Positions 9,207-58,467 of a stretch of DNA of 64,000 nt are shown here, one piece after another; position 1 is the stretch's first letter, and every line of letters begins with the position of its first letter. The stretch spans positions 1-64,000 of the forward strand of contig NZ_LXKA01000221.1 in assembly GCF_001645125.1 (NCBI RefSeq), written 5' to 3'. Below the pieces are notes generated by a model. That model was not told the DNA's origin. It did no database searches and saw only the letters and a program-made list of their open reading frames with translations. Origin of the DNA: Paraburkholderia ginsengiterrae (GTDB lineage Bacteria; Pseudomonadota; Gammaproteobacteria; Burkholderiales; Burkholderiaceae). A program made the position numbers and the translations under genes.

Positions 9207-9256
9207 TCCACTCGCCGCAACTATCTCTTAACCGCAACAACCAATACGGAGTACTT

Positions 9257-29734: not shown

Positions 29735-29838
29735 CTTCAACCCGGCCCGTCGTACTCTAAACGCACCCGACCCGAGCACGGTGCGCAGAAACTACAGCAC
29801 TATTGAGTGCGTCGACAGACGCACGCCAGGAGACACAG

Positions 29839-31182: not shown

Positions 31183-31208
31183 TCCTCCCTGCGCCAAGGA
31201 CTCCACCT

Positions 31209-32674: not shown

Positions 32675-32701
32675 GCCAATATAAGCTATTCGGAGATCGA
32701 G

Positions 32702-33418: not shown

Positions 33419-33469
33419 ACAGCGGACAAATAGATTGCACCAACACTTCTAGACGGAAAGGAACAGATC

Positions 33470-36055: not shown

Positions 36056-36814
36056 TCATGCTTGCAAAGTCGTGGCGCGCGCATTGGCCGGCACCGGTTG
36101 GTGGGAGAGGGTCCGTGCGAGAAGTGACCCGTAGCGCGTGGGTCGCTCGACAATTCCGAACTGGCAAAGGCAATGCCACAGCAATGCGGCATTGCTCGTG
36201 ACAACGGGAACGCCGATCTCTTTCTCAAGCGCCTCGATCACTGGGCTGACATGAATCCCCGCACAACTTATCAATAAGGCGTCAAAGCTGCTTGCAATTC
36301 CTGCCGCAAGATCGAGCCAGGATTGTGGTGGGATGGCCGCCTGCTCCAGGGGCGTCTGGCATGGCTGGCTTGCGTGGTCGACGACCTCGATCCCATGTTC
36401 ACGCAGAAAGCCGATTTCCTTCAGTACAACCTCCTGCCGATAAGGTGTCAGCAACGCAATTCTTGGGGCCGACAGTGCTTCCAAAGCAGCGAGTACCGCG
36501 TCGATCGTTGTCACGGCGGCGATACCCGTCGCGTCTGTGATTCGCCGCCTGATCGCCTCGGGGCCATTGACCACGCCTGCCGCCGTGCAATTCAACGCGA
36601 TCAGATCGACTTTCGCGTCGGCGAGCAAGCCGGCATGGTATTCGAGGTCATCAATGATCTTCGTGTCGGATTCGAGTGACGTATCGCGGAACGGCAAGCG
36701 CGTTGTCACGAACTGCACCCCTTCGGGCGCCATCAACTGAACCTCGAAATCGCAGAGCCCTCCGGACGGATAGAGATGACCGATCCGGGCCAAGGTGCCT
36801 AAGCCGATGCTCAT
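36056..36814 (-). CDS. Asp/Glu racemase superfamily protein (arylmalonate decarboxylase/maleate isomerase-like)
   Basis: The 252-residue protein has the two Cys sites of the superfamily, in IALNCTAAGVVNG and ALLISCAGIHV. The opening IGHLYPSGGLCDFEVQLMAP resembles arylmalonate decarboxylase and maleate isomerase more than glutamate racemase. Members racemise, isomerise or decarboxylate small acids without cofactors. The frame is open to 37108 but ATG 36814 is the better start. It is downstream of the AAHS carrier gene and probably cotranscribed. Confidence 0.82.
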   Translation of the reverse strand: MSIGLGTLARIGHLYPSGGLCDFEVQLMAPEGVQFVTTRLPFRDTSLESDTKIIDDLEYHAGLLADAKVDLIALNCTAAGVVNGPEAIRRRITDATGIAAVTTIDAVLAALEALSAPRIALLTPYRQEVVLKEIGFLREHGIEVVDHASQPCQTPLEQAAIPPQSWLDLAAGIASSFDALLISCAGIHVSPVIEALEKEIGVPVVTSNAALLWHCLCQFGIVERPTRYGSLLARTLSHQPVPANARATTLQA

Positions 36815-36903
36815 CGCTTTGCCTCGGTGGTGTGTTGTTGGGAACGTGAGCGGCGTGGCAATGCTGAACGTTGCGCGATCTGCGTGTCCTCTTGCCAATC
36901 CAT

Positions 36904-38253
36904 TCAGCCTTCCAGAGGAACACTCGACGAGTCGACACGTGCCACGCGTGAGCGCGGCTTGCCGGTCAAAGCAATCGCCAGCGCCGCAACGAGCGCGGAG
37001 GTGGCAAACGCGTAGAAATTCCATTGGATCTCGACGTTGTGCGCGGCAAGATAGGCACCGACCATCGGACCGCCCATCGCGCCAAAACGTCCGATGCCAA
37101 CGGCCCATCCGGTCGCGCTTGCACGCGCATGCGCGCGATAGAAATTGGCGATGAAGCCCAGCTGAACCATCGCGACGCCAATGCTGCCAAAACCGGCGAG
37201 TGCGACGAGCGCATAGTTAAAGACGAGGCTTCCCTTGAGGGTGAGGCAGCACACGGAGAGCGCGCCGATGATATAGCCCCCGACGATGGTCTTGCGCGCG
37301 CCCAATCGGTCGCTGATCTGGCCAATGAGGATGCCGCCCAACGCGGATGACAGCATGAACACCGCGAGAAACGACAGGCTCGAACCAAGGTCATAACCGA
37401 GCTTGCGCATGAGTTGCGGCAACCACGTGCCCAACCCGTAAATCACCAGGACGGCGGCAACCTGCGCAACCCACAGACAAACCGTTGCCCAGAAATTCTG
37501 CGGCGAGAACACTTCGCGGAACACCGCGCCAAGCGAGGGTTTCGGTGCCGCGCCGTGGCTTGCACGTTGAAACATGGATGAATCGATACCCAGGCGTTGG
37601 GCCAAAGTCTTCGCCTGAGTCTCTTTGCCCTTCGCAAGCAGAAAGTCGAGTGATTCGGGCAGAAACCACAGGAGAAAAGGAAGCGCCAGCAGCGGACTCG
37701 CCCCTAGCGCAACGACGAAGCGCCACCCGTGCGACTGCACAAAGAAAATACCGATGACCGCAGATAGCAGCGCACCGAGCGAGTAGCCCGAGTACATCAG
37801 CGCGAAATTCAGATTGCGCTTGTCAGAGGGCGAATATTCGACGGTTAGCGCGGCTGCCGCTGAAATGACTCCGCCAAGGCCGAGCCCGCCGATGAACCGG
37901 CTAACGGAGAACACGAACGGCGTCGGCGCCCACGCCGCGCCGAGCATGGACAGGGAGAAGAGGGCGACACAACTGATCAGCAGCAGTTTTCTGCCGACCA
38001 GGTCGCTGATCACGCTGATGAAATACGACCCAAACAAGGTGCCGAACAGAGCGGCGCTACCCATGGCGCCGATTTCCATCGGGGTGAGCTTCCAGACGGG
38101 ATCGCTTAGCAGGGACGGGACGATCGTTCCCATCACGCCGATGTCGTAACCCTCGGCGACGATCGTCAGAAAACACAGGACCAGGACCCGATACGTGGTT
38201 GCGGACGGCGGGTTGAACGAACGTAATTGCGCGTTTTCGGAGATTGCGGCCAT
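36904..38253 (-). CDS. MFS transporter, aromatic acid:H+ symporter (AAHS) family
   Basis: The 449-residue protein has twelve membrane segments. The first loop reads VAEGYDIGVMGTIVPSLL (the GYD motif of AAHS carriers such as PcaK), and FGSYFISVISDLVGRKLLL is the MFS loop motif. It imports an aromatic or related acid. An upstream palindrome at 38423-38435 overlaps its probable promoter. It is followed 89 bases on by the racemase-like gene. Confidence 0.92.
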   Translation of the reverse strand: MAAISENAQLRSFNPPSATTYRVLVLCFLTIVAEGYDIGVMGTIVPSLLSDPVWKLTPMEIGAMGSAALFGTLFGSYFISVISDLVGRKLLLISCVALFSLSMLGAAWAPTPFVFSVSRFIGGLGLGGVISAAAALTVEYSPSDKRNLNFALMYSGYSLGALLSAVIGIFFVQSHGWRFVVALGASPLLALPFLLWFLPESLDFLLAKGKETQAKTLAQRLGIDSSMFQRASHGAAPKPSLGAVFREVFSPQNFWATVCLWVAQVAAVLVIYGLGTWLPQLMRKLGYDLGSSLSFLAVFMLSSALGGILIGQISDRLGARKTIVGGYIIGALSVCCLTLKGSLVFNYALVALAGFGSIGVAMVQLGFIANFYRAHARASATGWAVGIGRFGAMGGPMVGAYLAAHNVEIQWNFYAFATSALVAALAIALTGKPRSRVARVDSSSVPLEG

Positions 38254-38422
38254 GCCAGCACCTCAGGCAAAGAGTAACGCCATTGATTGCCCGACCACCT
38301 GATTGTCCGGCAGGTTCGGTCCGCGCTCCAGCGCTGTTTCAATGTGCGCCGCAGCGAGGGATTCCGCCGTGAATGATCAGAGGATTAGGGATTAAGGCCG
38401 CTCAAGACAGCAGCCTAAATAC

Positions 38423-38435
38423 AGAATGACATTCT
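38423..38435. promoter_or_regulatory. TetR-type operator, copy 1 (upstream of the AAHS carrier)
   Basis: This is a perfect 13-base palindrome AGAATG-A-CATTCT. It lies 170 bases upstream of the carrier gene and next to TTGACA (on the minus strand, 38447-38452). An almost identical copy lies before the Rieske oxygenase gene. The TetR gene between them is the obvious binder. Confidence 0.65.
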
Positions 38436-38487: not shown

Positions 38488-39120
38488 CTAGCGCGTTTCC
38501 GGCTCCTGCTCGCCGAGCAGCAGGTCGGCCATCATGCAGGAGATTTTGTCGATGTCGCGATCGTCGCCGATACGGTGATTGATGACGAATCCATCGAACG
38601 CCATCCAGATGAGGTGCGACAGCAAATCGCCGTGCACCACGCCGGCTCGTTCCGGCGGAAGCGAGTCGAGCAACAGCTGCGTCACGAACACCTCAACGGG
38701 TTGCAACAGATTGACCGGCTTGCGAAGGTCTGCCGGCGCGGTCGCCAGTGCGTCGATGAGCGAGTTCGCAAAGGCATGATCGGCCGCCGGAATATCCGCC
38801 CAGATTCCGCTGATGATACGGCGGATCTTGCTGCGCGGATTCGACAGCAGCATGACCTCGGCACGCAGCGCGTGCAGCTTCTGGGTCAGCCACGGCTGAT
38901 AAATCTCGTACAGGATGATCAGCTTCGAATCGAAGTACACGTACAGGTTCGCCACGGTGGTCCCCGCCTCGCGCGCGATCTCTGTCATCGTGGTCGCCGA
39001 ATAGCCTTTGCGGCTGAATGCCGCGAAGGCCGACGCCAGAATTGCCTCGCGAATTTCTGCTTTTTTTACCTGCGGCACCACGCCTCCTGCGGTAGGTGAT
39101 TCAACGAATTGACTCGCCAT
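38488..39120 (-). CDS. TetR-family transcriptional regulator
   Basis: The 210-residue protein has the TetR helix-turn-helix near residues 25-60 (AFSRKGYSATTMTEIAREAGTTVANLYVYF split across that stretch) and a helical ligand domain. It lies between an AAHS carrier (same strand, downstream) and a divergent Rieske oxygenase operon, with palindromes on both sides. It probably represses both units until a substrate-derived ligand binds. Confidence 0.92.
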   Translation of the reverse strand: MASQFVESPTAGGVVPQVKKAEIREAILASAFAAFSRKGYSATTMTEIAREAGTTVANLYVYFDSKLIILYEIYQPWLTQKLHALRAEVMLLSNPRSKIRRIISGIWADIPAADHAFANSLIDALATAPADLRKPVNLLQPVEVFVTQLLLDSLPPERAGVVHGDLLSHLIWMAFDGFVINHRIGDDRDIDKISCMMADLLLGEQEPETR

Positions 39121-39187: not shown

Positions 39188-39216
39188 TTGACAGCGATTT
39201 TGGTTGAAAACAGAAT
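39188..39216 (+). promoter_or_regulatory. Promoter of the Rieske oxygenase operon
   Basis: TTGACA (39188-39193, consensus), a 17-base spacer and CAGAAT (39211-39216, four of six matches) lie 51 bases before the first start codon. The -10 box overlaps the palindrome at 39212-39224, which fits repression by steric block. Confidence 0.65.
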
Positions 39217-39224
39217 GACATTCA
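39212..39224. promoter_or_regulatory. TetR-type operator, copy 2 (Rieske oxygenase promoter)
   Basis: The sequence AGAATGACATTCA matches copy 1 at 12 of 13 bases (a 14-base identical core counting flanking AC). It overlaps the -10 box of the Rieske operon promoter. Confidence 0.65.
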
Positions 39225-39266: not shown

Positions 39267-40556
39267 ATGAATGCGATTCCCGCCCCGGAGGGCACGTTGA
39301 CCGCGCGCTACGCGGAGTTGGGCTCTGGACTGATTCCCGTCGAGCCCTATATTTCGCCTGAGTACTACGAGCGCGAGAAGGCGCATATCTTCAGGAAGAC
39401 CTGGCTGCAGGTCGGCCGTGTCGAGGAAATCCCCGAGGCGGGCGACTATTTCGTCAAGAAACTCGACGCTTGCGACACGGAGATCATCGTTGTGCGCAAC
39501 AAGCGCGGTGAGATTCGCGCGATGCACAATGTCTGCTCGCATCGGCTGAATCAGATTGCGTATGACAAAACCGGACATGCGCGCAAGTTCTTCTGCAAGT
39601 TCCACGGCTGGGCGTACGACCTGGACGGCAATCTCACCGGCGTGCCAGACGAGCAATGTTTTTTTGGGCTCGATTTCAAGGACTACGCACTGACACGCGT
39701 TGCATGCGACGTATGGCAAGGATTCATTTTCGTGAACATGGATCCGCAGCCCAGGCTCTCGCTCGCGGACTTTCTCAGGCCGATGTACGCAGAAGTCGAA
39801 GGCTATCCGTTCGACAAGCTGAAAGTGGGCTTCGCGTGGGAAACGGTGGTCGACTGCAACTGGAAGCTCGCACTCGACGCGTTCCAGGAGGCCTATCACG
39901 TCGCGTATGTGCATGGCAATTCGATTGCCGACGCGATCGACAAGAGCGCGGGTGGCAGCATGCCGCCGCTCGACGCGCTGTGTGGCGAGTTCCATCGGCG
40001 TCTGTCGCTGGCGGGCAACCAGAAATCGGTCTATGGCAACCCGAAAGCGGTGACCTCGGGCGGCGCAGCCGCAGCCGAAGCGTTGTCGGATGCGGGCTCG
40101 AAGCGCCCGATTGCCGCCTCGGCGTTGCGTGCGGGTATCGGCAGCGCGCGTCATGAGTTCCCTCTCGATGCGTTGCCCAAGGGCGTCAACTGGACGAAAA
40201 GCGAGAACTGGCTGTTCGACATCAACGTGATGTTTCCGGACTTCTATCTGTCGCTGCGTCCCAACTACTGCCAAGCCTACAACTTCCGTCCGATCGCGCA
40301 TAACAAAACGCTTTTTGAAGCGCGCGTGTACTACCCGGAAATGACGACGCCCGGCGGCCGCTTTTTCCTCGAGTACATGAAAGTGGCTTTGCGCGACGTG
40401 CTGCTCGAAGACCTCAGCACGCTCGAGCGTACGCAACGGGCGGCGGAAACCGGCGTGAAGAAATTCATGGTGTTGCAGGACAACGAATTGCTGGTACGGC
40501 ACAGCTATCACGTCATCGAACGCCTGTTGGCGCAAGCCGAAGCCACTGTGGAGTAA
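39267..40556 (+). CDS. Rieske non-haem iron oxygenase, large (alpha) subunit
   Basis: The 429-residue protein has the Rieske cluster ligands Cys90-x-His92 (NVCSHRLN) and Cys110-x2-His113 (CKFHGW), and the mononuclear iron site with His211 and His216 in DAFQEAYHVAYVH. It hydroxylates an aromatic or heteroaromatic ring, or demethylates, using two electrons per turnover. A reductase (41799) and a Rieske ferredoxin (45527) in the same operon can supply these. A typical small subunit is absent, but 43058 encodes an NTF2-fold protein that could serve. First gene of the operon. Confidence 0.92.
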   Translation: MNAIPAPEGTLTARYAELGSGLIPVEPYISPEYYEREKAHIFRKTWLQVGRVEEIPEAGDYFVKKLDACDTEIIVVRNKRGEIRAMHNVCSHRLNQIAYDKTGHARKFFCKFHGWAYDLDGNLTGVPDEQCFFGLDFKDYALTRVACDVWQGFIFVNMDPQPRLSLADFLRPMYAEVEGYPFDKLKVGFAWETVVDCNWKLALDAFQEAYHVAYVHGNSIADAIDKSAGGSMPPLDALCGEFHRRLSLAGNQKSVYGNPKAVTSGGAAAAEALSDAGSKRPIAASALRAGIGSARHEFPLDALPKGVNWTKSENWLFDINVMFPDFYLSLRPNYCQAYNFRPIAHNKTLFEARVYYPEMTTPGGRFFLEYMKVALRDVLLEDLSTLERTQRAAETGVKKFMVLQDNELLVRHSYHVIERLLAQAEATVE

Positions 40557-40561
40557 AGGTC

Positions 40562-40966
40562 ATGGAACAGAAAGTCATCGTCGTCACCCAGCGCACGAAT
40601 CACACGAAGGACGCGCCGTCACCCGCTCCGCTGCCTGCCGCCTTCGATGAACTGAGCCGGTTTGTCGACACATGGGCGTTGCCGACCGAAACCGGACGCA
40701 TGACGCAGCGTCATACGGTGGGCATGGCCGCCATTGTCGAATTCAAGGACGCGATGCTCGCCAGGGTCGACGACATCGTGGCATGGCTCAACCAGTTCGA
40801 ACTGCACAGGCTGCCCGAAGACGCAAAGACGCTGATGTATCTGCTTCTCTCGCTGGCAGAAGTCGCACCAGCTGTCGAGTTCTATCAGCAGCCTTTCGTG
40901 ATCGACGGATACGATCCGTTCCGCTTCGTGGCGGACGAAACGTTTTCCATGCGCCCCGCCATCTGA
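40562..40966 (+). CDS. Conserved-looking small protein of unknown function
   Basis: The 134-residue acidic protein follows the Rieske alpha gene by five bases. No family is recognised. The first 25 residues are low complexity (Pro/Ala rich); the rest is helical-looking (ARVDDIVAWLNQFELHRLPE, then LLLSLAEVAP) and ends FRFVADETFSMRPAI. There is no signal peptide or membrane segment. Tight packing with the oxygenase suggests a subunit or accessory role. Confidence 0.7.
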   Translation: MEQKVIVVTQRTNHTKDAPSPAPLPAAFDELSRFVDTWALPTETGRMTQRHTVGMAAIVEFKDAMLARVDDIVAWLNQFELHRLPEDAKTLMYLLLSLAEVAPAVEFYQQPFVIDGYDPFRFVADETFSMRPAI

Positions 40967-40999
40967 CGCTCACGCGTTCGATCAGTCAAGGATCAGATC

Positions 41000-41431
41000 A
41001 TGCCCAAGTGCCGCATTTTTGGTGTTGACCATGCGCTCAAGGAGGTTGTCGCCAACGGCCTCTACATGAAGACGATGATCGGCGAGACGATGAGCGTCGC
41101 GGTCATCAAGTTTGTCGAAACAGCGGGCCACGGGCTGCCCGCGAAAGCGCACAGCCACGGAGAAGAGGCGTCGTTGCAGATCAGGGGCGGCTGTTCGATT
41201 TTCGAGGTGCACGGCAACGGCGAGGAGATCGAGCGGCGCCTGAACACGGGCGAGGGCATGATCATTCCCGCCGGCTTGAGTCACTACGGCGTCAACACCT
41301 ACGAGGGCGCCGGCGTGAGCATGCGTCTGAACGTGGTGACGCCGCCGCGTGCCGAATATCGCAGCGATGACGAAGCTCCCTATTACCCGCTGGCCAATCG
41401 GGAGAACGAATCGCGGGGGAACGCATCGTGA
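41000..41431 (+). CDS. Cupin-domain protein with metal ligands
   Basis: The 143-residue single cupin has first-motif ligands in KAHSHGEEASLQIRGG (HxHxxE) and second-motif residues in GEGMIIPAGLSHYGVNTYEG (a His about 40 residues later). It could bind Fe or Mn and act as a dioxygenase, isomerase or ligand sensor. Its stop overlaps the next cupin gene (GTGA). Confidence 0.8.
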   Translation: MPKCRIFGVDHALKEVVANGLYMKTMIGETMSVAVIKFVETAGHGLPAKAHSHGEEASLQIRGGCSIFEVHGNGEEIERRLNTGEGMIIPAGLSHYGVNTYEGAGVSMRLNVVTPPRAEYRSDDEAPYYPLANRENESRGNAS

Positions 41432-41802
41432 GTGAAGCGATTCCGTCGAATGCCGGCGCCGCGCATTGCACGCTGTTGCCGGCCATTCCTTCTGAAGGAG
41501 CGGCGGCGGCCCTGCCGGTCCAGCGAAATATCGCTGATGGCGCGGCGCTTTCAGCGTCGACTCAACGGATGCAATGCGACGAGCTGGTCGAACTCGCAGC
41601 GGGCCTTCTTGGTGAAGAGCTTGCCGCCGTGCTGGAAGGGCGCGTCGACATCGTCGCAGCGGATGAACACTACATCCTCTCGGCGGGCGAGGCGATCCTG
41701 ATCCCGCCGCGGGAAGCGCGCCGCTATCGTTGCGTCACGCCAAGCTGCGTGCTGTATCGCGTGACGTGCAACGCAGAAGCAAACAAGGAGCCGCAGGTAT
41801 GA
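41428..41802 (+). CDS. Cupin-like protein without metal ligands
   Basis: The 124-residue protein reads GEELAAVLEGRVDIVAADEHYILSAGEAILIPPREARRY in sections, the beta-barrel rhythm of a cupin. The motif-one His residues are replaced, so it probably does not bind metal. GTG 41428 overlaps the previous stop, and the next gene's ATG overlaps its stop at 41799-41802. It may pair with the metal-binding cupin upstream. Confidence 0.75.
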   Translation: MSEAIPSNAGAAHCTLLPAIPSEGAAAALPVQRNIADGAALSASTQRMQCDELVELAAGLLGEELAAVLEGRVDIVAADEHYILSAGEAILIPPREARRYRCVTPSCVLYRVTCNAEANKEPQV

Positions 41803-43058
41803 ACTCGCCACATGTCGCGATAGTCGGCGCGGGCCATGCCGGCGGACGCGTCGCACAGCATCTGAGGGCACTTGGCCATGCCGGGCAAGTCACGCTGATC
41901 GGCGACGAGCCGCATGCGCCTTACGAGCGTCCCGCACTCTCGAAAGAGCTGCTGCTGGGTACGAAGACGCAAGACAGCCTTGTGCTGACCTCGTCCGGCT
42001 ATTGGACCAGCGAGTCGCTGACGCAAACCGGCATCGAGCGCGTGTGCGCGAGTGCGCGGAAACTCGACGTCGATTCACGGCGCCTGCATCTCGACAGCGG
42101 CGCAGTCGTGGACTTCGACTTGCTGGTCGTTGCGACGGGCGGCATGGCGAGGCGTCCGCATTGGCTCGCTCGACCCATTGAAGGCGTGCATGTGCTGCGT
42201 ACGGTGGACGATTGTCTCGCATTGCGCGCGTCGCTTGAGGGTTGCCGCAAGCTGGCGATCATCGGCGCGGGCGTGATTGGAATGGAGGTGGCGTCGACAG
42301 CGATGTCGCTCGGCGTACCGGTGACGGTGCTGGAGGCGGGTGACGGCATTATGGGGCGTTGTCTGCCGCCGCTGGTCGCCAGCTGGCTTGCGCAGGAGCA
42401 TGCCGCGAAGGGCGTCGATTTGCGAACACGTGTCCACGTCACGGACGTCGTGCGCGCGGGCAGCACGGATGGCAGCGCGTTGGCGTTGCGCATCGAAGCC
42501 CGGCAGGACGGCGCGCCGGTGAGTATCGAGGCCGACTGCGTGTTGATCGCGATCGGCGTCGACTGCAATCCGGCCTTCCTGCGCGGCACAGGACTTTCGG
42601 ACGAGCGTGGCGTACTGGTCGACGAATTCTGCCGCAGCCCTCGCGCGCCCTGGCTGTACGCCGCCGGAGACGCGGCATGCACATTGGACAGCGCTTCCAG
42701 CCGCCACTTCAGGCAGGAAACGTGGCGCAACGCCGAGAATCAGGCGCGTGCCGTAGCCGGAATCATCAGCGGCAAAGAAGAACCCTATGCCGAGATTCAG
42801 TGGATGTGGACCGATCAACTCGGCCACGCCATTCAGGTGACGGGCGTGCATGAGCCCGGCGATGAGATCGTCGTGCGCGGTTCGCTGTCTTCGGCGGATG
42901 CAACGGTCATTTCTCTGCGCGACGGTTGCGTGAGCGCGGGTGTGACGGTCAACCAGAGCCGTGAAAGGCGGCATCTGGAACGTCTCGTGGGCACGCGCAG
43001 GCGGATCGACGCGGGCCAATTGGCCGACACGTCGATTCCGTTGAAGGAGCTGGTGTGA
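41799..43058 (+). CDS. FAD-dependent ferredoxin reductase of a Rieske oxygenase system
   Basis: The 419-residue two-nucleotide-site reductase has FAD motif IVGAGHAGGRVAQHL near residue 8, EPHAPYERPALSKELL, and NAD motif AIIGAGVIGMEVASTA near residue 150, then YAAGDAACT. It passes electrons from NAD(P)H to a ferredoxin; the Rieske ferredoxin at 45527 is the likely acceptor. ATGA overlaps link it to its upstream neighbour, and TGATG to the next. Confidence 0.92.
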   Translation: MNSPHVAIVGAGHAGGRVAQHLRALGHAGQVTLIGDEPHAPYERPALSKELLLGTKTQDSLVLTSSGYWTSESLTQTGIERVCASARKLDVDSRRLHLDSGAVVDFDLLVVATGGMARRPHWLARPIEGVHVLRTVDDCLALRASLEGCRKLAIIGAGVIGMEVASTAMSLGVPVTVLEAGDGIMGRCLPPLVASWLAQEHAAKGVDLRTRVHVTDVVRAGSTDGSALALRIEARQDGAPVSIEADCVLIAIGVDCNPAFLRGTGLSDERGVLVDEFCRSPRAPWLYAAGDAACTLDSASSRHFRQETWRNAENQARAVAGIISGKEEPYAEIQWMWTDQLGHAIQVTGVHEPGDEIVVRGSLSSADATVISLRDGCVSAGVTVNQSRERRHLERLVGTRRRIDAGQLADTSIPLKELV

Positions 43059-43642
43059 TGGCAGAACGTGATACGCCGGTACTGTCGCTCGAGGCGCGCG
43101 TCGCCCGGCTCGAAGCGGTCGACGCGATCCGCTCGCTGAAGGCACGCTATGGCGCGCTCGCCGATGCGAAATACACGAGTGACTACCAACGGCAGCCGCC
43201 GCATGTGATGCGCGAAATCGCGTTGCAACAGGCCGCATGCTTCACCGAGCGCGCAGTGTGGATCGGCGGCGCGGGATTTGGCAACGACCTCACCGGGCGT
43301 GCCGCGCTCGGCGAATGGTTTCAGCGCTCGCCGTGGCGTTTCGCGATGCATTACTACGTGAGTGAAGAACTCGAGGTTACCGACGCCACTCACGCAACCG
43401 GCACCTGGAGGCTCTGGCAGCTTGCGTTGCGTGATGATGACGCGCATGCGGTATTGCTTGGGGCGGTCACCAACGAGAAATATGAGCGCACGCCCACCGG
43501 CACGTGGCTGATCAGTGAAATGCGCTTCACGCAGCTTCACATGATGGAGCCCGACGACAGGATGTTGCCGCTAGCCAGTGATTTCGCTTCGCTCACCGCA
43601 TTGCGCAAGTCCGCATGCAGCGAAATGACCCGAACCGTTTGA
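43058..43642 (+). CDS. SnoaL/NTF2-fold protein, possible oxygenase small subunit
   Basis: The 194-residue protein begins with the SnoaL-4-type helix (SLEARVARLEAVDAIRSLKA, then RYGALADAKY) and shows GFGNDLTGRAALGEWFQ and TGTWRLWQLALRDD. Rieske oxygenase beta subunits share the NTF2 fold, so it could be the small subunit, but sequence alone does not prove that. ATG 43058 overlaps the previous stop; GTG 43055 is an alternative. Confidence 0.78.
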   Translation: MAERDTPVLSLEARVARLEAVDAIRSLKARYGALADAKYTSDYQRQPPHVMREIALQQAACFTERAVWIGGAGFGNDLTGRAALGEWFQRSPWRFAMHYYVSEELEVTDATHATGTWRLWQLALRDDDAHAVLLGAVTNEKYERTPTGTWLISEMRFTQLHMMEPDDRMLPLASDFASLTALRKSACSEMTRTV

Positions 43643-44598
43643 TGGATGGAATGCTCATGAACACACTTACGACAGGCCCGAATGCGGCGCGAAGCGACAC
43701 GGCCGCGGATCACGCCACCGCGCGCGTGATTGCGTTATGTCCGGATCACGCGAACGCGGATGCCGCTCACACCTGCCGGAATACGGCGACGATCGCGGAG
43801 AACGAATGCCAGGTGCGCTCGAACGCGTGGGTCAACGCGGAGTACAAGCATCTCGTGCTGACGGCGCCTGACCTCGCGCTGACGGCGCGCGCCGGGCAGT
43901 TCTTTCATCTCGCGTGTCCGGCTTCGAACGACGACACGCCCTATCTGCGCCGGCCAATGAGCATCTACTGTGTGGCCGCCGAAGACAGCCGCATCGAGTT
44001 TCTCTACAAGGTGCAAGGCGCGGGAACACGTGGCCTCGCCCAGCTTCAGCCGGGCGATACGCTCGACGCGCTGGGTCCGCTCGGAAACGGCTTCGCGCTT
44101 CCCGTGTCGGCGGAACCGGCGCACGTTCTGCTGCTTGGCCGCGGCGTCGGGCTCGCGACGATGGCGCCGCTCGCGCAGCAGGCGATCGCGGCGAGGGCGC
44201 ACGTCACCGCTATTCTCAGCGCGCGCAGTGAGGCGCTGATGATGTCGGCGGACTATCTGAGAGCCGCGGGCGCCGATGTCATCACCGTCACCGATAGCGA
44301 GCAGACCAGCGACGTGGTCCAGGTCGAGAGCCTGATCCGGAAGATTCACGCGCAACGGCGCATTACATTCGTCAGCACGTGCGGGTCGAACCGCCTGCTC
44401 GTCATGTTGCAGCGCGTGGCCGCGCAGTTGAGCATTGCTGGCCAGGTCGCGCTCGAACAGCGCATGGGCTGCGGTTATGGAGCGTGCTACGCATGCGTGC
44501 GGCCATTTCGAAAGGAGGCGGGCTCACAGGAGCTCAGTTATCGCCGCGTGTGCTGGGAAGGCCCGGTCTTCGATCTTCAGGAAACGACATCATGGTAG
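43642..44598 (+). CDS. PyrK-like iron-sulfur flavoprotein (dihydroorotate dehydrogenase electron-transfer subunit-like)
   Basis: The protein has about 318 residues (start ATG 43642 or 43657). A ferredoxin-reductase-type FAD/NAD module (YLRRPMSIYCVAAED, LLLGRGVGLATMAPLA) precedes a 2Fe-2S cluster of PyrK type: CGYGACYACVRP and a final Cys in RVCWEGPVF. The N-terminal 55 or so residues are an extension. In pyrimidine synthesis PyrK joins PyrD of class 1B; here its partner is the next gene, with 7 bases overlap, inside a Rieske oxygenase operon. Confidence 0.88.
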   Translation: MDGMLMNTLTTGPNAARSDTAADHATARVIALCPDHANADAAHTCRNTATIAENECQVRSNAWVNAEYKHLVLTAPDLALTARAGQFFHLACPASNDDTPYLRRPMSIYCVAAEDSRIEFLYKVQGAGTRGLAQLQPGDTLDALGPLGNGFALPVSAEPAHVLLLGRGVGLATMAPLAQQAIAARAHVTAILSARSEALMMSADYLRAAGADVITVTDSEQTSDVVQVESLIRKIHAQRRITFVSTCGSNRLLVMLQRVAAQLSIAGQVALEQRMGCGYGACYACVRPFRKEAGSQELSYRRVCWEGPVFDLQETTSW

Positions 44599-45530
44599 AT
44601 CTCAGTGTCAATATCGGTTCGCTCAAGCTCGCCAATCCGGTGATGCCCGCGTCGGGTACGTTCGCCGAAGGCACAGCGCAGATTTTCGACCTCAATTGTC
44701 TCGGCGCAATCGTTACCAAGACCATTACTCATGACGTGCGCGAAGGCGTGCCGCCGCCGCGCGTCGCCGAGTTTCGCGACGCCACGCTCTTTTCGATCGG
44801 CATTCCCAGCAAGGGCAGCGACTATTACGTCGAACACACCGTGCCGTACTACCGGCGCTACAGTCCGCCGCTCGTCGCGAGCATTTCGGCCAACACGATC
44901 GAGGAGTTCGGCAGGCTCGCGGAAAAAATCAGTGTGCCGGGTGTCGCGGCGATCGAAGCGAATGTCTCCTGTCCCAACCTGAAGAAGAATGGTCAGGCGT
45001 TCGGCATGGATCCGGAAGCCACCTGGCAGGTGGTCAGGGCGATGAAGTCCGCAACCTCGCTGCCCGTCTGGCCGAAGATGACGCCCAATGCGGGCAACGT
45101 CGTCGAGGTTGCGCTGGCGGCTCAGGACGCGGGTGCGGATGCGCTCGTGGTGAGCAATGCGATTCTTGCCATGGCGATCGATGTCGAGACATTCCGGCCA
45201 CGTGTGGCGAATGTCATGGGTGGCCTGACGGGTGCCGCCACGAGGCCGATCATGCTGCGGATCGCCTATCAATGTGTCCAGGCCGTCGAGATTCCCGTCA
45301 TCGGATGCGGCGGCATAGCCACGGCCGCGGATGCGCTCGAATTTCTTCTTGCGGGCTGCTGCGCGGTGCAGGTCGGCACCGCCAACTTCGTTTCACCGAC
45401 AGCGATGCCGCGCCTGATCGACGATCTGACAGAGTGGTGCAAGCGGCACGGAGTGTCAAAACTCACCGACCTGATCGGCGCGGTGAAGATGCATGAACCT
45501 GTCGATCTCCAGCAACGGGTGGCGCTATGA
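44592..45530 (+). CDS. PyrD class 1B-like flavoenzyme, divergent substrate site
   Basis: The 312-residue FMN barrel has GAIVTKTIT (Lys43), EANVSCPNLKKNGQAFGMD (Cys127, the usual class 1 base), PKMTPN (Lys162), SNAILAM (Asn189) and VIGCGGI...VQVGTANF phosphate motifs. The loop usually reading NAIGLQNPG in class 1B enzymes is FSIGIPSKG (residues 67-75), so the orotate-contacting Asn residues are lost. I infer another substrate, an N-heterocycle or an enone-like intermediate. It is paired with the PyrK-like gene, not with pyrimidine genes. Confidence 0.88.
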   Translation: MVDLSVNIGSLKLANPVMPASGTFAEGTAQIFDLNCLGAIVTKTITHDVREGVPPPRVAEFRDATLFSIGIPSKGSDYYVEHTVPYYRRYSPPLVASISANTIEEFGRLAEKISVPGVAAIEANVSCPNLKKNGQAFGMDPEATWQVVRAMKSATSLPVWPKMTPNAGNVVEVALAAQDAGADALVVSNAILAMAIDVETFRPRVANVMGGLTGAATRPIMLRIAYQCVQAVEIPVIGCGGIATAADALEFLLAGCCAVQVGTANFVSPTAMPRLIDDLTEWCKRHGVSKLTDLIGAVKMHEPVDLQQRVAL

Positions 45531-45898
45531 ACGCAGTGATTCAGATAAATTCCGCCGACGCGCGCGAGTACGTGCGTGGCGACGACGGCTGGTTTGCAAT
45601 CGGATCGCTTGACGAGGTGTTCGGCGCGCGCGCATGCCGTGGCATCGACATCGAGGGCGTCAAGATCGGACTGTTCCGTGTCGACGACGAGATTCACGCG
45701 CTTGACGACATCTGCACGCACGGTGCGGCTTTGCTCAGCGATGGCGAATTCGAGGGGCACGAAGTGGAATGTCCGCTGCATGCCGGTCTGGTGGATGTGA
45801 GAACGGGCCGTGCGCTTGCCGCGCCCGTGTCGCGCGACACCCGACATCATGAGACCAGGGTCGAAGCCGATGTGCTGTTCGTGAGGGTGCAACCATGA
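45527..45898 (+). CDS. Rieske-type ferredoxin
   Basis: The 123-residue protein holds the Rieske cluster motifs CTHGAALLSDGEFEG and CPLHAGLVDVRTGRAL (C-x-H and C-x2-H). It carries electrons from the FAD reductase (41799) to the oxygenase (39267). Both ends overlap neighbouring genes by four bases (ATGA), placing it firmly in the operon. Confidence 0.93.
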   Translation: MNAVIQINSADAREYVRGDDGWFAIGSLDEVFGARACRGIDIEGVKIGLFRVDDEIHALDDICTHGAALLSDGEFEGHEVECPLHAGLVDVRTGRALAAPVSRDTRHHETRVEADVLFVRVQP

Positions 45899-47025
45899 GC
45901 GGCGCTCAAGTGGCTGAACCAGTGGCTCCTGCCGTGTCGGCGTTGGTTGACGAAAACGCTGCGCCTGCAAAGCGTCCTCGCATCGCCGTGATCGGTACCG
46001 GCGGCACGTTCGCGATGCACGGCCGTCATCGGTTCGACTGGATCGAGTACGCCGACAGCGGCGTCATCCATCCAATCGACGATCTGCTGGAACGCCTGGG
46101 CGAACTGGTTCCGCATGTCGAGATCGTGCCTGTGCCGTTTCGCGCTTTGGGAAGCGTGTCCATCGGTCCGGGCGACTGGCTGGAGCTTGCCACGCTGATC
46201 CGCGACACCGCCGCGAGCGATGCCACGCTGACGGGTTTCGTGATCACCCACGGCACGGCGACGCTCGAGGAGACCGCCTGGTTTCTCGACCTCGTGCTGG
46301 AACTCGATCAACCCGTCGTGCTGACGGGCGCTCAGCGCCCCGCAAACACGGATGGCAGTGACGCCGCGGCGAATTTGCGCGGCGCGGTTGCTCTCGCCGC
46401 CGCCCAGGACTCGCGCGGTTCGGGCGTGCTCGTTGCGATGGGCGGCCTCTTCTTTGCTGCGCGCGACGTGACCAAGGCGGCCAGCTTCGAACTGGCGGCA
46501 TTCGAGGCCGCGCCGTATGGACCGCTCGGCAGGATCGATGCGGACGCCGGCGTGGTCTGGCGACGCCGCGTGTTTCGTGATGAGAGGCCGGCGCGGCGGG
46601 CCTCGCGTTTTGCACCGATACTGGATGCGGCAACGCGCAGCGGATTGCCGCGCGTCGACATTGCCCTATCGTATGCGGGTGCGGACGGCGCGGCAATCGA
46701 CGCGTTTGTCGCGGCGGGTGCGCGCGGCATCGTCTGCGCGGGGCTTGCGCCTGGGCGCCCCGCATCTGGAGAACGCGAGGCGCTGTGTTGCGCCGCCGGG
46801 GCCGGCGTGGTGGTCGTGCAGGCCACGCGCGCACCTCGCGGCACGGTGCCGAAGCAGCGTTTCCTCGCTGCCGACGGATTCGTTGCGGGGGGCGATCTCT
46901 CGCCGCAGAAGTTGCGCATCGCTCTTATGCTGATACTCGCGAGCTTCGGCACGAGCAATGTGGCCCCGCATGATCGCGCGCAAACGGAGCGCGATACCGT
47001 GCAACGCATTTTGCTCGAACTTTGA
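45895..47025 (+). CDS. Asparaginase/glutaminase-family protein with Asp-to-Ala change
   Basis: The 376-residue protein has VIGTGGTFAM (Thr38 at the first Thr site) and VITHGTATLEETAWFLDL. Canonical asparaginases read THGTDT (or, in some, GTNT) there; this one has Ala122 (codon GCG at 46258-46260), removing the Asp of the catalytic relay. The Lys region ARDVTKAASFEL and the PYGPLG segment are kept. The N-terminal 27 residues are an extension. It may hydrolyse or bind another amide, or be inactive. No signal peptide: likely cytoplasmic. Confidence 0.88.
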   Translation: MSGAQVAEPVAPAVSALVDENAAPAKRPRIAVIGTGGTFAMHGRHRFDWIEYADSGVIHPIDDLLERLGELVPHVEIVPVPFRALGSVSIGPGDWLELATLIRDTAASDATLTGFVITHGTATLEETAWFLDLVLELDQPVVLTGAQRPANTDGSDAAANLRGAVALAAAQDSRGSGVLVAMGGLFFAARDVTKAASFELAAFEAAPYGPLGRIDADAGVVWRRRVFRDERPARRASRFAPILDAATRSGLPRVDIALSYAGADGAAIDAFVAAGARGIVCAGLAPGRPASGEREALCCAAGAGVVVVQATRAPRGTVPKQRFLAADGFVAGGDLSPQKLRIALMLILASFGTSNVAPHDRAQTERDTVQRILLEL

Positions 47026-47081
47026 AGTGAATTGCCCGCCTCGCGCCGTCAATCCATTTGCTTGATTCACTCGGACCGAAC

Positions 47082-47789
47082 ATGCAATTCTCCTATCTGG
47101 TCACCTTCCAGCACCCCGACCCGAGCGCGCGCATCAGCGACGAAGATCGGCAGCGTATCCGCGCGTGCGTGGAGGATACGCCCGCGTTGAGCCGCGCGCG
47201 CCTGTACACGCCGTCCGCGGCGAAAGACTATTACACGAACGACGGACCATCGCCGATCTTCGCCATGCAACTCGATTTCGAAAGGCTCGCCGATCTGGAG
47301 TCGGCGATTGCCTCCGGCGGACATCTGCTGCAACTCGCAACGGGCGACTACTCAAGCCTCGCGACATGTGCGGTCGAGCAGCAGGTTATGGCAAGGCGGC
47401 CTTTTCCGGTGCTCGATTCGCACGCGCAGGTGCCGCAAGGCGCGTTGCCCTGTCAGTTTCTCGTTCACTATCCGGGCCGCGCCGAGAACTTCGACGATTG
47501 GCTTGCGTATTACCTGTCGCATCACCCGCAGATCATGAAGTTCTTCGACGGCGTGCGCGAGATCGAAATCTTCACGCGGGTCGATTGGGTTGATGCGATG
47601 CCGTGGAAGCGGGTGCACTACATGCAGCGCAACAAGCTGATGTTCGACAGCGCCGACGCAATCACGCGCGCGATGAACTCGCCGATTCGACACGAGATGC
47701 GCGCGGATTTCGAAAAATTCCCGCCGTTTGAAGGCAGCAACATCCATCACCCGATGTGGGCGGAAACGCTCTTCGCACCGACGCCCTAG
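47082..47789 (+). CDS. Uncharacterised protein of an M20-associated family (copy 1), EthD/dimeric barrel-like
   Basis: The 235-residue protein closely resembles the product at 52805. Conserved blocks in both are HYPG (129-132), SHHPQIM (146-152), DWVDAMPW (168-175) and YMQRN (180-184). The alternation of strands and helices suggests two ferredoxin-like (EthD-type) halves; this is a guess from pattern. It follows the asparaginase-like gene by 56 bases and precedes a deleted porin. Soluble, with no signal peptide. Confidence 0.75.
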   Translation: MQFSYLVTFQHPDPSARISDEDRQRIRACVEDTPALSRARLYTPSAAKDYYTNDGPSPIFAMQLDFERLADLESAIASGGHLLQLATGDYSSLATCAVEQQVMARRPFPVLDSHAQVPQGALPCQFLVHYPGRAENFDDWLAYYLSHHPQIMKFFDGVREIEIFTRVDWVDAMPWKRVHYMQRNKLMFDSADAITRAMNSPIRHEMRADFEKFPPFEGSNIHHPMWAETLFAPTP

Positions 47790-47855: not shown

Positions 47856-48215
47856 ATGAACCTGAATAGAGCAGGCACGCTCGTGATCGCGAGCGTCCTC
47901 GCGTCCGCGTCCGCGTGCGCGGACGCAAACGCACAATCGAGCTATACGCTTTACGGCAGCATCGACGAGAGCATTGGGTATGTGACCAACACGAAGGGCG
48001 GCCGCGCAGCGGTGATGGGGCCGATAGCCGTACCGGACCAGTTCGGTTTCAAGGGAAGCGAAGACCTGGGCGGCGGCACGAACGCGATTTTCCGGCTTAA
48101 GAACGGCTATTTTTCGAATACCGGCAGTTTTACGACGGCGGCCCTGCCGTCGCTCGCTCCTTCGTCGACGAGTTCGCAGGCCTCGCTGCGCTTCGGAGTG
48201 CAGCACTTCTTCTGA
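47856..48215 (+). pseudogene. Internally deleted trimeric porin
   Basis: The 119-residue frame has a signal peptide, the porin opening SSYTLYGSIDESIGYVTNTK and GSEDLGGGTNAIFRLKNGYF, then switches near residue 92 to the C-terminal strand ALPSLAPSSTSSQASLRFGVQHFF (given in two parts in porins). Full porins are about 370 residues, so roughly 250 residues were lost without breaking frame. It may still be secreted but could not form a 16-strand barrel. A full-length porin occurs later at 53569. Confidence 0.8.
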
Positions 48216-48578: not shown

Positions 48579-49532
48579 ATGAAGATCCATCAACTGCGCA
48601 CACTCGTCGCAATTTCCGATACTGGAAGCATTCGCAACGCGGCGAAGGCGCTCGAACTTTCACCTGCGGCGGTCACCAAGGCGATGCGCGAACTCGAAGC
48701 CCAGGTTGGCGTGGCATTGATCGTCCGCGAGGCCTCCGGGATCATTCTGACCGACGCCGGGCAGGCTTTGCTGGCGCATGCCCGTCTGATGATTCAGCAG
48801 TTGCGACGCGCGCAAGACGAGATGGACCGCTTCTCCGGAGCGGGCAGGGAGCGGCTGACAGTCGCATTGCCGACCTGGATCGCCATCGCGCTGCTTGGCG
48901 GCATCATGAAGCGCTTCGAGCAGGAGATGCCCGATACGCGGCTTGTCTTCTACGAGAGCCTGCTGAGCGTCGCCGTGCCGAAATTGCGTGACGGTACGCT
49001 CGACCTCTCGGTGAATCGCGCCTGTCCGCCGTCATGCCGGGACGAATTCCAGCAAGTGCCGCTCTTCCTGGTGAGTTACGCGGTAGTGGGGCGTGCGGGA
49101 CATCCGCTTGCGAAATGCCGCACGCTGTCGCAACTGAAGGGCGCGAGCTGGGTGTTGAACCGTGACTTCACGGAAAACGACGTTGAAGGTGACGGCCCAT
49201 TCGGCGAGTACTTTCGCCGCCACAAGCCGCGCGTGCACGTCGCGCATTCCTCGTCGATGATGATCGGGCTGATTTGCAACACCGACGTCCTTTCGATCAT
49301 GCCCTGGCCACTCGCGGAACTGCTCGTCGCGAAAGAGGGGTTGTGCGTGCTGCCCGTCACCGAGAGCATCCCTGAAGTGGAAGTGAACCTGATGTACCGG
49401 CGCGGCACCCCGCTAAGCGCTGCGGCAAAGGTCTTCATTCAAAGCCTTAAGGACACCATACTCGACGCGGCCAATTCGCCCGACCCAATGAGCAGGCGTG
49501 TCTTTCATGCGGTCGAATGCGTGTTGAGCTAA
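48579..49532 (+). CDS. LysR-family regulator (CbbR/aminobenzoate-operon-like)
   Basis: The 317-residue protein starts at ATG 48579 with KIHQLRTLVAISDTGSI and the helix-turn-helix AKALELSPAAVTKAMRELE, then a regulatory domain. A TTG ten codons upstream is less likely. It precedes the M20 hydrolase operon on the same strand by 320 bases and is its likely regulator. Confidence 0.9.
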   Translation: MKIHQLRTLVAISDTGSIRNAAKALELSPAAVTKAMRELEAQVGVALIVREASGIILTDAGQALLAHARLMIQQLRRAQDEMDRFSGAGRERLTVALPTWIAIALLGGIMKRFEQEMPDTRLVFYESLLSVAVPKLRDGTLDLSVNRACPPSCRDEFQQVPLFLVSYAVVGRAGHPLAKCRTLSQLKGASWVLNRDFTENDVEGDGPFGEYFRRHKPRVHVAHSSSMMIGLICNTDVLSIMPWPLAELLVAKEGLCVLPVTESIPEVEVNLMYRRGTPLSAAAKVFIQSLKDTILDAANSPDPMSRRVFHAVECVLS

Positions 49533-49852: not shown

Positions 49853-51346
49853 ATGTTGAAGCTCAACGAAGCAGAACGGGACGTGGTCGCTCGCATCGAG
49901 CCTCATCGCGCGCTGTGCACGCACCTGAGCGACAGGCTCTGGGATCTTGCTGAGACCGCTTACTCGGAACACGTGTCCGCCGACCTTCAGATAAGGGAGT
50001 TGACGCGCGAAGGCTTTCGGGTGACGCAAGGCCTTGCGGGCATTCCGACAGCGTTCGTTGCGCAATGGGGCGAGGACGGACCGGTGATCGGTTTGCTGGG
50101 CGAGTACGATGCATTGCCCCAGTTGAGTCAGGTGGCGGGTTCCGCGACGCGCGCGCCGGTCGTGAATGCAGGCAACGGTCATGGTTGCGGTCACAATCTG
50201 CTGGGCGGTGCCGCATTGCTCGCCGCGCTGGCGGTGCGCGATCATTTGCGTGACAGGGGTGTCGCCGGCCGGATCCGCTACTACGGTTGCCCCGCGGAGG
50301 AAGGTGGCGCGGGCAAGACGTTCATGACGCGTGCCGGTGTGTTCGACGACCTCGACGCCGCGCTGACATGGCACCCGTCCAGCATCTATGCGATCGACGC
50401 AATGTCGACGCTCGCCACACTGCATGCGCGCTTCACATTTGCCGGCCGGGCCGCTCATGCGGCCGCCGCGCCGCATCTCGGCCGCAGCGCGCTCGACGCG
50501 GTCGCGTTGATGAACGTGGCGGCCAATTACCTGCGCGAGCACATTCCGTCCGACGCGCGCCTGCACTACGCGATTCACGATACGGGCGGTCGCGCGCCGA
50601 ACGTCGTGCAGGCTCGCGCGGAGGTCGTCTACCAGATACGCGCGCCCGAGCTTGAAGTCGTGCGTTCGCTTCATGCGCGTCTGCTACGGATCGCCGAGGG
50701 CGCCGCGATGATGACCGAGACGGCGATGCACGCACGCGTTGAGAAGGCGATGTCGAATATGCGCCCGAATCCCGTGCTCTCGGATCTGATGCATGCGCGC
50801 ATGCAGGCGCTCGGCCCCGTCCCGTTCGACGATGAAGACCGGGCTTTCGCGCGTGTGATGCAGCAAGCCATTTCGAAGGAAGAAGCGCGTGCGAGCCTCG
50901 CCATATTCGGTGCCGCGCATCTAGAGGGCGAACTCCACGACGCTGTTTTGCCGGCGGAGCGGATTCCGGCCGTTCTGGCCGCTTCGACCGACGTCGGCGA
51001 TGTCAGCTGGGTGGTGCCGACGGCCCGCTGCCTCGTGCCATGCTTCGCGCTCGGCACGCCGTTCCATTCATGGCAACTGGTCGCGCAGGGCAAGTCGTCG
51101 CTGGCCCACAAGGGGATGACGCATACCGCCAAGGCGCTGGCCGTCACGGCGGCGGCGCTGTATCGCGATCCGGCTACGCTCGCAGCCGCGAAACGGGCGC
51201 TGCGGGAGCAGTCGGCCGATGCGGCGTACCAGTGTCCCATTCCGTCCGACGTCGAACCGCCCGTCGCCGCTGCCACCGGCGATGCGCGCCGGCGCAGCAC
51301 GTTGCGTGGCGCGTTTCCGTCGCAGTATGCAGGAGTGCAATCGTGA
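49853..51346 (+). CDS. M20-family amidohydrolase, AbgB-like (copy 1)
   Basis: The 497-residue enzyme has GHGCGHNLLGG, YYGCPAEEGGAGKT (catalytic Glu) and the C-terminal metal region HSWQLVAQG, as in AbgB (p-aminobenzoyl-glutamate hydrolase subunit B) and related aminoacylase-like enzymes. The dimerisation domain lies at about residues 190-310. The tail ends with YQCPIPSDVEPP, shared with two paralogues here. It cleaves an acyl/aroyl-amino acid amide bond in the cytoplasm. GTGA overlap couples it to copy 2. Confidence 0.9.
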   Translation: MLKLNEAERDVVARIEPHRALCTHLSDRLWDLAETAYSEHVSADLQIRELTREGFRVTQGLAGIPTAFVAQWGEDGPVIGLLGEYDALPQLSQVAGSATRAPVVNAGNGHGCGHNLLGGAALLAALAVRDHLRDRGVAGRIRYYGCPAEEGGAGKTFMTRAGVFDDLDAALTWHPSSIYAIDAMSTLATLHARFTFAGRAAHAAAAPHLGRSALDAVALMNVAANYLREHIPSDARLHYAIHDTGGRAPNVVQARAEVVYQIRAPELEVVRSLHARLLRIAEGAAMMTETAMHARVEKAMSNMRPNPVLSDLMHARMQALGPVPFDDEDRAFARVMQQAISKEEARASLAIFGAAHLEGELHDAVLPAERIPAVLAASTDVGDVSWVVPTARCLVPCFALGTPFHSWQLVAQGKSSLAHKGMTHTAKALAVTAAALYRDPATLAAAKRALREQSADAAYQCPIPSDVEPPVAAATGDARRRSTLRGAFPSQYAGVQS

Positions 51347-53542: not shown

Positions 53543-53552
53543 ACCAATTGGT
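53543..53552. promoter_or_regulatory. Palindrome in porin leader
   Basis: A perfect 10-base palindrome ACCAATTGGT lies 16 bases before the porin start codon, in an AT-rich leader. It may be a regulator site; no binder is identified. Confidence 0.35.
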
Positions 53553-53568
53553 TTGGAGTACATATAAA

Positions 53569-58438: not shown

Positions 58439-58451
58439 GCAAACGATTGCA
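58438..58451. promoter_or_regulatory. LacI-family operator
   Basis: TGCAAACGATTGCA is a 14-base near-palindrome with central CG, the classic layout of LacI/GalR operators. It begins at the end of the -10 box and covers the likely transcription start, so a repressor there would block transcription. A third TTGCA half-site lies at 58425-58429. The LacI gene at 63268 is the candidate binder. Confidence 0.65.
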
Positions 58452-58467
58452 CAGACGGAGACACCCC

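Follow-up and report, generated by a model that had tools for sequence, protein, structure and literature searches.

How is an aromatic ring processed by an operon that combines a Rieske oxygenase with a PyrK/PyrD-like flavoenzyme pair and an asparaginase-like protein, and that holds neither a short-chain dehydrogenase/reductase (SDR) nor a ring-cleavage enzyme? Such an operon lies at positions 39267–47789 of the 64-kb stretch analysed here (the window), which belongs to the 8.53-Mb genome of Paraburkholderia ginsengiterrae. We propose, tentatively and with somewhat less than even confidence, that it encodes an upper pathway turning an N-acylated or lactam aromatic acid into catechol and an amino-free dicarboxylic monoamide. 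The reactions and substrates are predicted from gene content, conservation, residue changes, a shared operator and linkage to catechol genes. If the proposal is true, it would provide a general route for stripping N-acyl groups off aromatic rings without a diol dehydrogenase. The operon is apparently undescribed. An earlier note on this DNA knew of no pathway with this gene set, and no matching publication turned up in the open literature in searches of which about half were directed at the operon and the rest at auxin, indole, picolinate and pyridine pathways, most subscription journals lying outside their coverage.

Gene order, conservation and shared operator

All eleven + strand genes that the earlier note had placed in series at this locus were confirmed. 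The Rieske oxygenase alpha subunit (alpha, 39267–40556) is followed by U134 (40562–40966), a 134-aa partner family of alpha, by the single-domain cupin cup1 (41000–41431), by a second cupin, cup2 (41428–41802), and by a FAD-dependent ferredoxin reductase of the HcaD/AndAa type (41799–43058). Next come a SnoaL/NTF2-fold protein (43058–43642; PF13577, 1e-12), a PyrK-like NAD/FAD/2Fe-2S subunit with a conserved cluster Cys region (43642–44598), a PyrD-like FMN subunit (44592–45530), a Rieske-type ferredoxin (45527–45898), the asparaginase-like amidohydrolase (45895–47025) and an EthD-like protein (47082–47789). Pfam backs alpha (Rieske plus Ring_hydroxyl_A), the reductase, SnoaL_4, the PyrK-type iron-sulfur (FeS) domain, DHO_dh, the Rieske ferredoxin and the asparaginase. 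One cupin scores above the cut-off, and cup1 gives a weak Cupin_2 match. The EthD-like protein matches PF07110 weakly, below cut-off, and has a 44% relative of the EthD family in the iac-like island of Caballeronia described below. The genes mostly overlap, as had been claimed, although the overlap is of four bases at only 4 of the 10 junctions (cup1/cup2, cup2/reductase, PyrD/ferredoxin and ferredoxin/asparaginase-like). The reductase/SnoaL, SnoaL/PyrK and PyrK/PyrD junctions overlap by amounts set by the chosen start, and gaps of 5, 33 and 56 bases separate alpha/U134, U134/cup1 and asparaginase-like/EthD-like, respectively.

The conservation of the operon is far beyond chance. Alpha has matches at E<=1e-60 in 35 of 399 genomes of the family, its own included. 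Outside the window, 19 places in 18 of these genomes carry it at 76–98% identity, after which identity drops to 42% or less; the alpha gene of Paraburkholderia haematera is 98% identical. In named proteobacterial loci, which overlap with the 18 family genomes, identity is 59–98% in 32 of 33 and 39% in the remaining one (L088). The conserved-neighbourhood search that the earlier note had suggested returned the same gene set and order: alpha, U134, cup1 and SnoaL stand together and in order in all 32 named loci, and so do the ferredoxin and asparaginase-like genes, except in L059, where the contig stops inside PyrK. The gene set is also borne by plasmids of Azospirillum and Paroceanicella, and in four alphaproteobacterial loci (L081–L084) the reductase lies upstream on the opposite strand. 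A remnant comprising the last alpha residues, U134 (54%) and cup1 (61%) sits at 11844–12737 of a Cupriavidus necator C39 plasmid, on which no further operon gene was matched.

Upstream, on the − strand, lie a TetR-family regulator (38488–39120; TetR_N, 2e-13) conserved among the loci, an AAHS-type aromatic acid transporter of the major facilitator superfamily (MFS; 36904–38253; TIGR00895 at 280 bits, not reaching the cut-off of 418.55) and a 253-aa protein, counted from a conserved Met, of the Asp/Glu-racemase superfamily (AMD; 36056–36817), a relative of EutA, arylmalonate decarboxylase and maleate isomerase. The palindrome CAGAATGACATTC occurs exactly at 38422–38434, between the MFS and TetR genes, and again exactly at 39211–39223, shortly 5′ of alpha. 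With a site counted when at most one mismatch fell in ten scored positions, this putative operator precedes alpha in 26 of 40 loci (22/25 in a first set and 4/15 in an added set). It was not found before alpha in the other 14, namely L068 and L049 (Pandoraea-type), L085, L086, L088 and nine alphaproteobacterial loci (L079–L084 and L089–L091). Between MFS and TetR it is present in 12 of 17 loci (not in L067, L068 and L071–L073), and in Cupriavidus L071 the same motif, with one mismatch, precedes the separate PyrK gene. In the P. ginsengiterrae genome, mismatch-free extended sites occur at these two places only, with four two-mismatch sites elsewhere; a reversed control pattern gave 2 matches. 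The shared palindrome thus ties together the operon, the divergent AAHS carrier and AMD, and in Cupriavidus also the separate PyrK/PyrD module. Two tandem TetR genes of the same family stand ahead of the operon in L064, L065 and L066 (about 8600–9870).

Active sites of the operon proteins

Residues were compared in alignments of matches covering at least 60% of the query at E<=1e-15, with identical repeats removed. In all 38 distinct asparaginase-like sequences the equivalents of AnsB Thr12, Tyr25, Ser58, Thr89 and Lys162 are kept, and in the same 38 Gln59 is replaced by Val or Thr, Asp90 by Ala, and Glu283 by Phe, Tyr or Trp. We take Thr12, Tyr25, Thr89 and Lys162 to be the catalytic residues of type II asparaginase, Ser58 its carboxylate contact, and Gln59, Asp90 and Glu283 its alpha-amino contacts. 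The operon's protein therefore shares the domains, the catalytic Thr/Lys/Tyr and the carboxylate-binding Ser of that enzyme and differs from it at every one of the three amino-binding positions. Since the amino contacts are lost and the carboxylate contact is retained, the predicted substrate is an amino-free dicarboxylic monoamide. The gene is labelled asparaginase in plasmid records.

A similar case is made by the PyrD-like protein, which NCBIfam names, above cut-off, as a dihydroorotate dehydrogenase (DHODH). All 29 sequences carry Phe and Ala at the equivalents of Asn67 and Ser194, presumably orotate-binding positions of class 1B DHODH, and keep the catalytic Cys (Cys127) and several orotate Asn residues. 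The pair thus resembles the class 1B enzyme in joining a PyrD to a PyrK with the PyrK-type FeS domain and a catalytic Cys, and departs from it in the two replaced residues and in the presence of a separate class-2 PyrD (441 bits, cut-off 200) elsewhere in the genome. A pyrimidine role for the pair would be superfluous given that second enzyme, and pyrimidine synthesis as the operon's function, which thereby looks improbable, was set aside, in line with the reading of the earlier note. The active sites of the PyrD-like and asparaginase-like proteins argue against the reactions after which the two are named.

PyrK/PyrD lies within the operon in most loci and apart from it in Pandoraea and in Cupriavidus, where a second TetR accompanies it. 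Six named loci lack it in the fetched stretch (L067, L072, L073 and L076–L078); a genome-wide PyrD search gave no match at E<=1e-20 for four of them, a 35% partial match for one and a 78% relative about 18 kb off for the last. Over the 11 genomes or records searched in this way, the Azospirillum plasmid and four genomes bearing the core gave no PyrD match at this threshold, a fifth core-bearing genome gave the 35% partial match, and the other five have a 71–79% relative on alpha's contig, about 6–19 kb from the alpha gene. The core is otherwise intact in the genomes without a close PyrD. In none of these five genomes is there a close EthD either: one gave a 43% partial match and four gave no match. 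An EthD relative is present in five and absent in four of the nine other genomes of the EthD search. Because they are missing from core-bearing genomes, PyrK/PyrD and EthD are best regarded as accessory, and PyrK/PyrD as an obligatory diol dehydrogenase was set aside for the same reason. Two minor observations concern this module. A second PyrD relative (52–54%) lies away from the operon in two Pandoraea-type genomes and one Cupriavidus (L101, L102 and L103), and PyrK of Pandoraea captiosa (L068, 4228–5093) is split over two overlapping reading frames, possibly by a frameshift, either a real one or one introduced by the assembly.

Alpha has the signature of Rieske non-heme iron oxygenases, that is, a CxH...CxxH cluster, a 2-His-1-carboxylate iron site and a bridging acid, with E208, H211, H216 and D382 in 41 of 41 sequences; the bridge is Glu (Glu208), not Asp. 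All expected metal ligands of cup1 (HxH...E...H) are present in 38/38 sequences, so this cupin could conceivably cleave the ring. The HxH ligands are missing in cup2, for which the alignment filter leaves only 16 sequences. Of the suggestion of the earlier note that the flavoenzyme and the cupins may replace the diol dehydrogenase and the ring-cleaving enzyme, the part that concerns PyrK/PyrD is not supported for a required step.

U134 had no match in Pfam (E<=5), NCBIfam (E<=1e-3) or PHROGs (E<=0.01), and its best match in the PDB was at chance level (E 0.62). With a U134 profile, the family was found next to the alpha relative in each of 16 further loci (15 distinct), where alpha identity is about 34–42%. 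It also stands beside three alphas of one Novosphingobium plasmid and beside one alpha each on plasmids of Variovorax, Sphingobium RSMS and Burkholderia arboris, its position varying between 5′ and 3′ of alpha. U134 thus accompanies almost every alpha relative looked at. In our reading, this oxygenase clade uses it as a partner subunit or as an assembly factor, and U134 would thus add a Rieske-oxygenase partner family without a Pfam or PDB match. A search of 398 genomes of the phylum matched the P. ginsengiterrae genome alone and so gave no wider context. On the Sphingobium plasmids TKS and MI1205 (L146, L147), an IS6100 element precedes an alpha copy that begins only at residue 86 and is followed by SDR and EthD-domain genes; no U134 was found within 3 kb of this cut alpha.

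Catechol linkage and candidate chemistry

Genes for catechol-cleaving enzymes adjoin the operon in five lineages, at 9 of 39 distinct places. The operon is adjoined by catA in four Cupriavidus-type genomes, by catABC in Azospirillum, and by catA/catB in Pseudooceanicola, with a less typical CatA (150), and in Novosphingobium lindaniclasticum, where pcaD, pcaF and a CoA transferase were also recognised by eye. In two Pandoraea-type genomes a catechol 2,3-dioxygenase (C23O; 438 bits against a cut-off of 320) lies between AMD and PyrK. The Cupriavidus and Novosphingobium CatA proteins score 367 and 336, under the TIGR02439 cut-off of 392. In this tally, flank lengths are unequal and the window's own intradiol gene is left out of the nine. 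The linkage was noticed after the fact; with 8 intradiol-type matches in the 8.5 Mb of the P. ginsengiterrae genome, about 2% of 21-kb stretches would be expected to hold one by chance, a figure that excludes extradiol genes. Since catechol 1,2- or 2,3-dioxygenase genes adjoin the operon in five lineages, the absence of a ring-cleavage enzyme from it is explained more simply than by recruitment of a cupin.

Anthranilate 1,2-dioxygenase carries out ipso-dioxygenation, after which re-aromatisation expels the substituents and yields catechol without a cis-diol dehydrogenase. We suggest a comparable course for the TetR-controlled pathway proposed here. Its substrate would be an aromatic acid in which a C4-type dicarboxylic chain acylates the ring nitrogen, forming a lactam or an anilide. 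A three-component Rieske oxygenase (alpha with U134, the FAD reductase and the Rieske ferredoxin), probably together with the SnoaL protein, would oxygenate the ring carbon bearing the N-acyl group, and re-aromatisation would expel the substituents to give catechol. The chain would be freed as a primary amide, succinamate- or oxaloamate-like, and hydrolysed by the asparaginase-like enzyme, and catechol would pass on to CatA or C23O, whose genes adjoin the operon in several relatives. PyrK/PyrD, together with EthD and AMD, may have an accessory role, as an NAD-linked module by which a precursor is oxidised or configured. The M20 amidohydrolases of the window could feed the pathway, as could a molybdenum (Mo) hydroxylase in other lineages; such a gene is linked in two Herbaspirillum genomes read further, in Caballeronia L085 and in four Rhodobacterales loci. 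Ipso-dioxygenation with substituent loss would thus explain why no SDR is present and why the asparaginase is altered. Genes for amide hydrolases also adjoin distant members of the oxygenase clade, on Acinetobacter and Novosphingobium plasmids, which favours the proposal.

Oxidised auxin as a possible substrate, rival readings and neighbouring genes

Which N-acylated acid could serve? The leading candidates are 2-oxindole-3-acetate and dioxindole-3-acetate, that is, oxidised auxin, and the auxin link is guilt by association from neighbouring genes. In this version 2-oxindole-3-acetate would be released from its amino-acid conjugates by the M20 amidohydrolases or be made from indole-3-acetate (IAA) by a Mo-hydroxylase. 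The two-Cys racemase and the DHODH-like flavoenzyme would prepare the oxindole acid, the Rieske oxygenase and its partner subunit would break up the oxindole to yield catechol together with a C4 monoamide, and the amidohydrolase, as a deamino-asparagine hydrolase, would finish the latter. Anaerobic IAA degradation opens with a Mo-hydroxylase making oxindole-acetate. That the operon represents a third aerobic auxin-catabolic route, starting from the plant's own inactivation products, is a doubtful and on balance unlikely extension of the proposal. Were it true, it would be of consequence for plant–microbe signalling that bacteria can remove oxidised auxins or conjugates of these.

The neighbours in question form a + strand run of acyl-CoA ligase, MFS, thiolase, SDR and DLH-SnoaL fusion genes (28106–34708; iad/iif-like) that we infer to belong with the operon. 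The last of them (33470–34708, 412 aa) is of the IifA type. The whole run has 68–84% relatives on a Caballeronia Sq4a plasmid, beside iacA-like and flavin reductase genes. On a Caballeronia SBC2 plasmid, thiolase, SDR and DLH-SnoaL relatives (66–78%) and a ligase of only 34% lie in an island with Rieske alpha/beta, 121-aa, SnoaL-type, amidase, SDR, EthD, iacA-like and flavin reductase genes, termed iac-like by its gene content. In P. sediminicola, ligase, MFS and thiolase relatives (76–82%) lie no more than about 30 kb from alpha, together with cyclase and IorA/IorB-like genes, and in Pinisolibacter L082 AMD and EthD have an iacA-like protein (57–58%) and a flavin reductase (45%) as neighbours. 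Many plasmids carry relatives of the DLH-SnoaL fusion (60–79%; 38 records, E<=1e-40), and on one of them, pCAR1, the gene lies near antABC. Since IifA is itself a DLH-SnoaL fusion, an IifA-like role for the operon's small SnoaL gene was set aside.

The known auxin loci were compared through gene content, descriptions and the proteins of the Caballeronia iac-like island. The iac locus (iacHABICDEFG-mfs-pcaIJD-catBCA) leads from indole-3-acetate to catechol, and its step from dioxindole-3-acetate to catechol involves iacCDF and possibly the SnoaL-type iacI, with intermediates not worked out (PMC7225977, PMC9613470, PMC8383072). The locus resembles the operon in its Rieske oxygenase, SnoaL protein, small protein of unknown function, dehydrogenase, MFS carrier, cat genes and end product. 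The proposal, if true, would give the step from dioxindole-3-acetate to catechol an explicit, checkable chemistry. In contrast to iac, no iacA-like, beta-subunit or iacH-type amidase gene was found in the window, and the operon has an asparaginase-like amidase, a PyrK/PyrD-like dehydrogenase and a TetR regulator. The product of iacH is an amidase. The iad loci of Variovorax, Achromobacter and Bradyrhizobium include iorA/iorB and ligase/thiolase genes; a CoA ligase and a thiolase likewise lie near the operon, and IorA/IorB and a cyclase in P. sediminicola. The end product of iad, however, is anthranilate, and a term search of two iad papers gave no instance of asparaginase, cupin or dihydroorotate, for which reason the idea that the operon is an iad operon itself was set aside.

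Several observations weigh against the proposal and its auxin version. Catechol genes were not found at 30 of the 39 distinct places. None of the Caballeronia iacA-like, flavin reductase, beta-subunit, 121-aa and amidase proteins has a counterpart in the window at E<=1e-12, and the DLH-SnoaL gene is linked to the operon in the window and P. haematera only. Alpha is remote from its counterpart in the Caballeronia iac-like island (31.6% over some 200 residues), and the 121-aa gene there is not matched by U134. Furthermore, a Variovorax alpha relative sits in a picolinate-type cluster, which argues that the oxygenase clade is not restricted to benzo rings.

The same oxygenase-plus-amidase logic might instead serve acyclic N-acyl anthranilates or anilides, of plant or xenobiotic origin, with no link to auxin, an alternative we hold to be unlikely. 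It draws on acetamidase/formamidase genes beside distant alpha/U134 pairs on plasmids of Acinetobacter (with catABC) and Novosphingobium, and on the M20/M28- and S15-type hydrolases of sphingomonad relatives; against it speaks the presence of auxin-type genes nearby in the window, in P. sediminicola and in Pinisolibacter. The sphingomonad hydrolase genes (L079, L080 and L089), an M20/M28-type peptidase and an S15-type hydrolase, lie beside EthD.

Slightly less likely still, in our judgement, is a pathway of the hydroxypyridine or picolinate type, in which the Rieske enzyme would hydroxylate an N-heteroaromatic acid, cup1 or another enzyme would open the ring, the asparaginase-like enzyme would hydrolyse maleamate and AMD would convert maleate to fumarate. 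The Variovorax WDL1 cluster points this way, for it pairs an alpha relative (33.7%) with U134-family, SnoaL-type and ferredoxin genes and also holds genes for a 2,5-dihydroxypyridine dioxygenase, an isochorismatase, an amidohydrolase and a Mo-hydroxylase, a set resembling the pic genes, picB1–B4 among them, that have been described (PMC10142695). Mo-hydroxylases are, as noted, linked in several lineages, and AMD is akin to maleate isomerase, with both Cys kept in 23 of 23 sequences; we take these two Cys to be the catalytic pair of two-Cys racemases and isomerases. However, relatives of the Variovorax dihydroxypyridine dioxygenase and isochorismatase are absent at E<=1e-12 from the window, the core loci and their extensions, and catechol genes are linked in five lineages instead. 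Of two scores of AMD that both fall below cut-off, moreover, the one for EutA (117 bits) exceeds the one for arylmalonate decarboxylase (93 bits), and the family-library search did not name the maleate-isomerase family. The four WDL1 plasmid genes (L109) may themselves be picB1–B4, in which case U134 would belong with the fast-evolving PicB2.

An ordinary aromatic dioxygenase pathway, with PyrK/PyrD as cis-diol dehydrogenase and a cupin as ring cleaver, was the version of the earlier note and is improbable: the operon lacks an SDR and cup1 is complete in its ligands, but five genomes keep the core without a close PyrD, dedicated catechol dioxygenases are linked in several lineages, and we know of no class 1-type DHODH that oxidises a diol.

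Apart from the rival chemistries, the M20 amidohydrolases, racemase-like gene and AAHS-type carrier that the earlier note had reported were located where it placed them, and its link of the operon with amidohydrolases and an aromatic-acid carrier is supported, as is its reading of an aromatic or heteroaromatic catabolic operon. Downstream on the + strand, a LysR regulator (48579–49532) adjoins an M20 module made up of M20 amidohydrolases a (49853–51346) and b (51343–52803), both above the TIGR01891 cut-off, a second EthD-like protein (52805–53503; 39–45% to homologues of the first) and a porin (53548–54684). Beyond it, accompanied by an MFS gene, lies a third M20 amidohydrolase on the − strand (54771–56270; TIGR01891), with a 76% relative in the P. 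sediminicola island. A + strand intradiol dioxygenase (58447–59382) shows 43–44% to the CatA beside the operon in Azospirillum, its role being uncertain. This gene, the third M20 gene, the TetR gene, the two exact operators and the run at 28106–34708 are additions to the earlier note. Between the operon and the M20 module, a 119-aa porin-like open reading frame (47856–48215) has, by eye, a porin-like start and C-terminal end with little between, and resembles an internally shortened porin.

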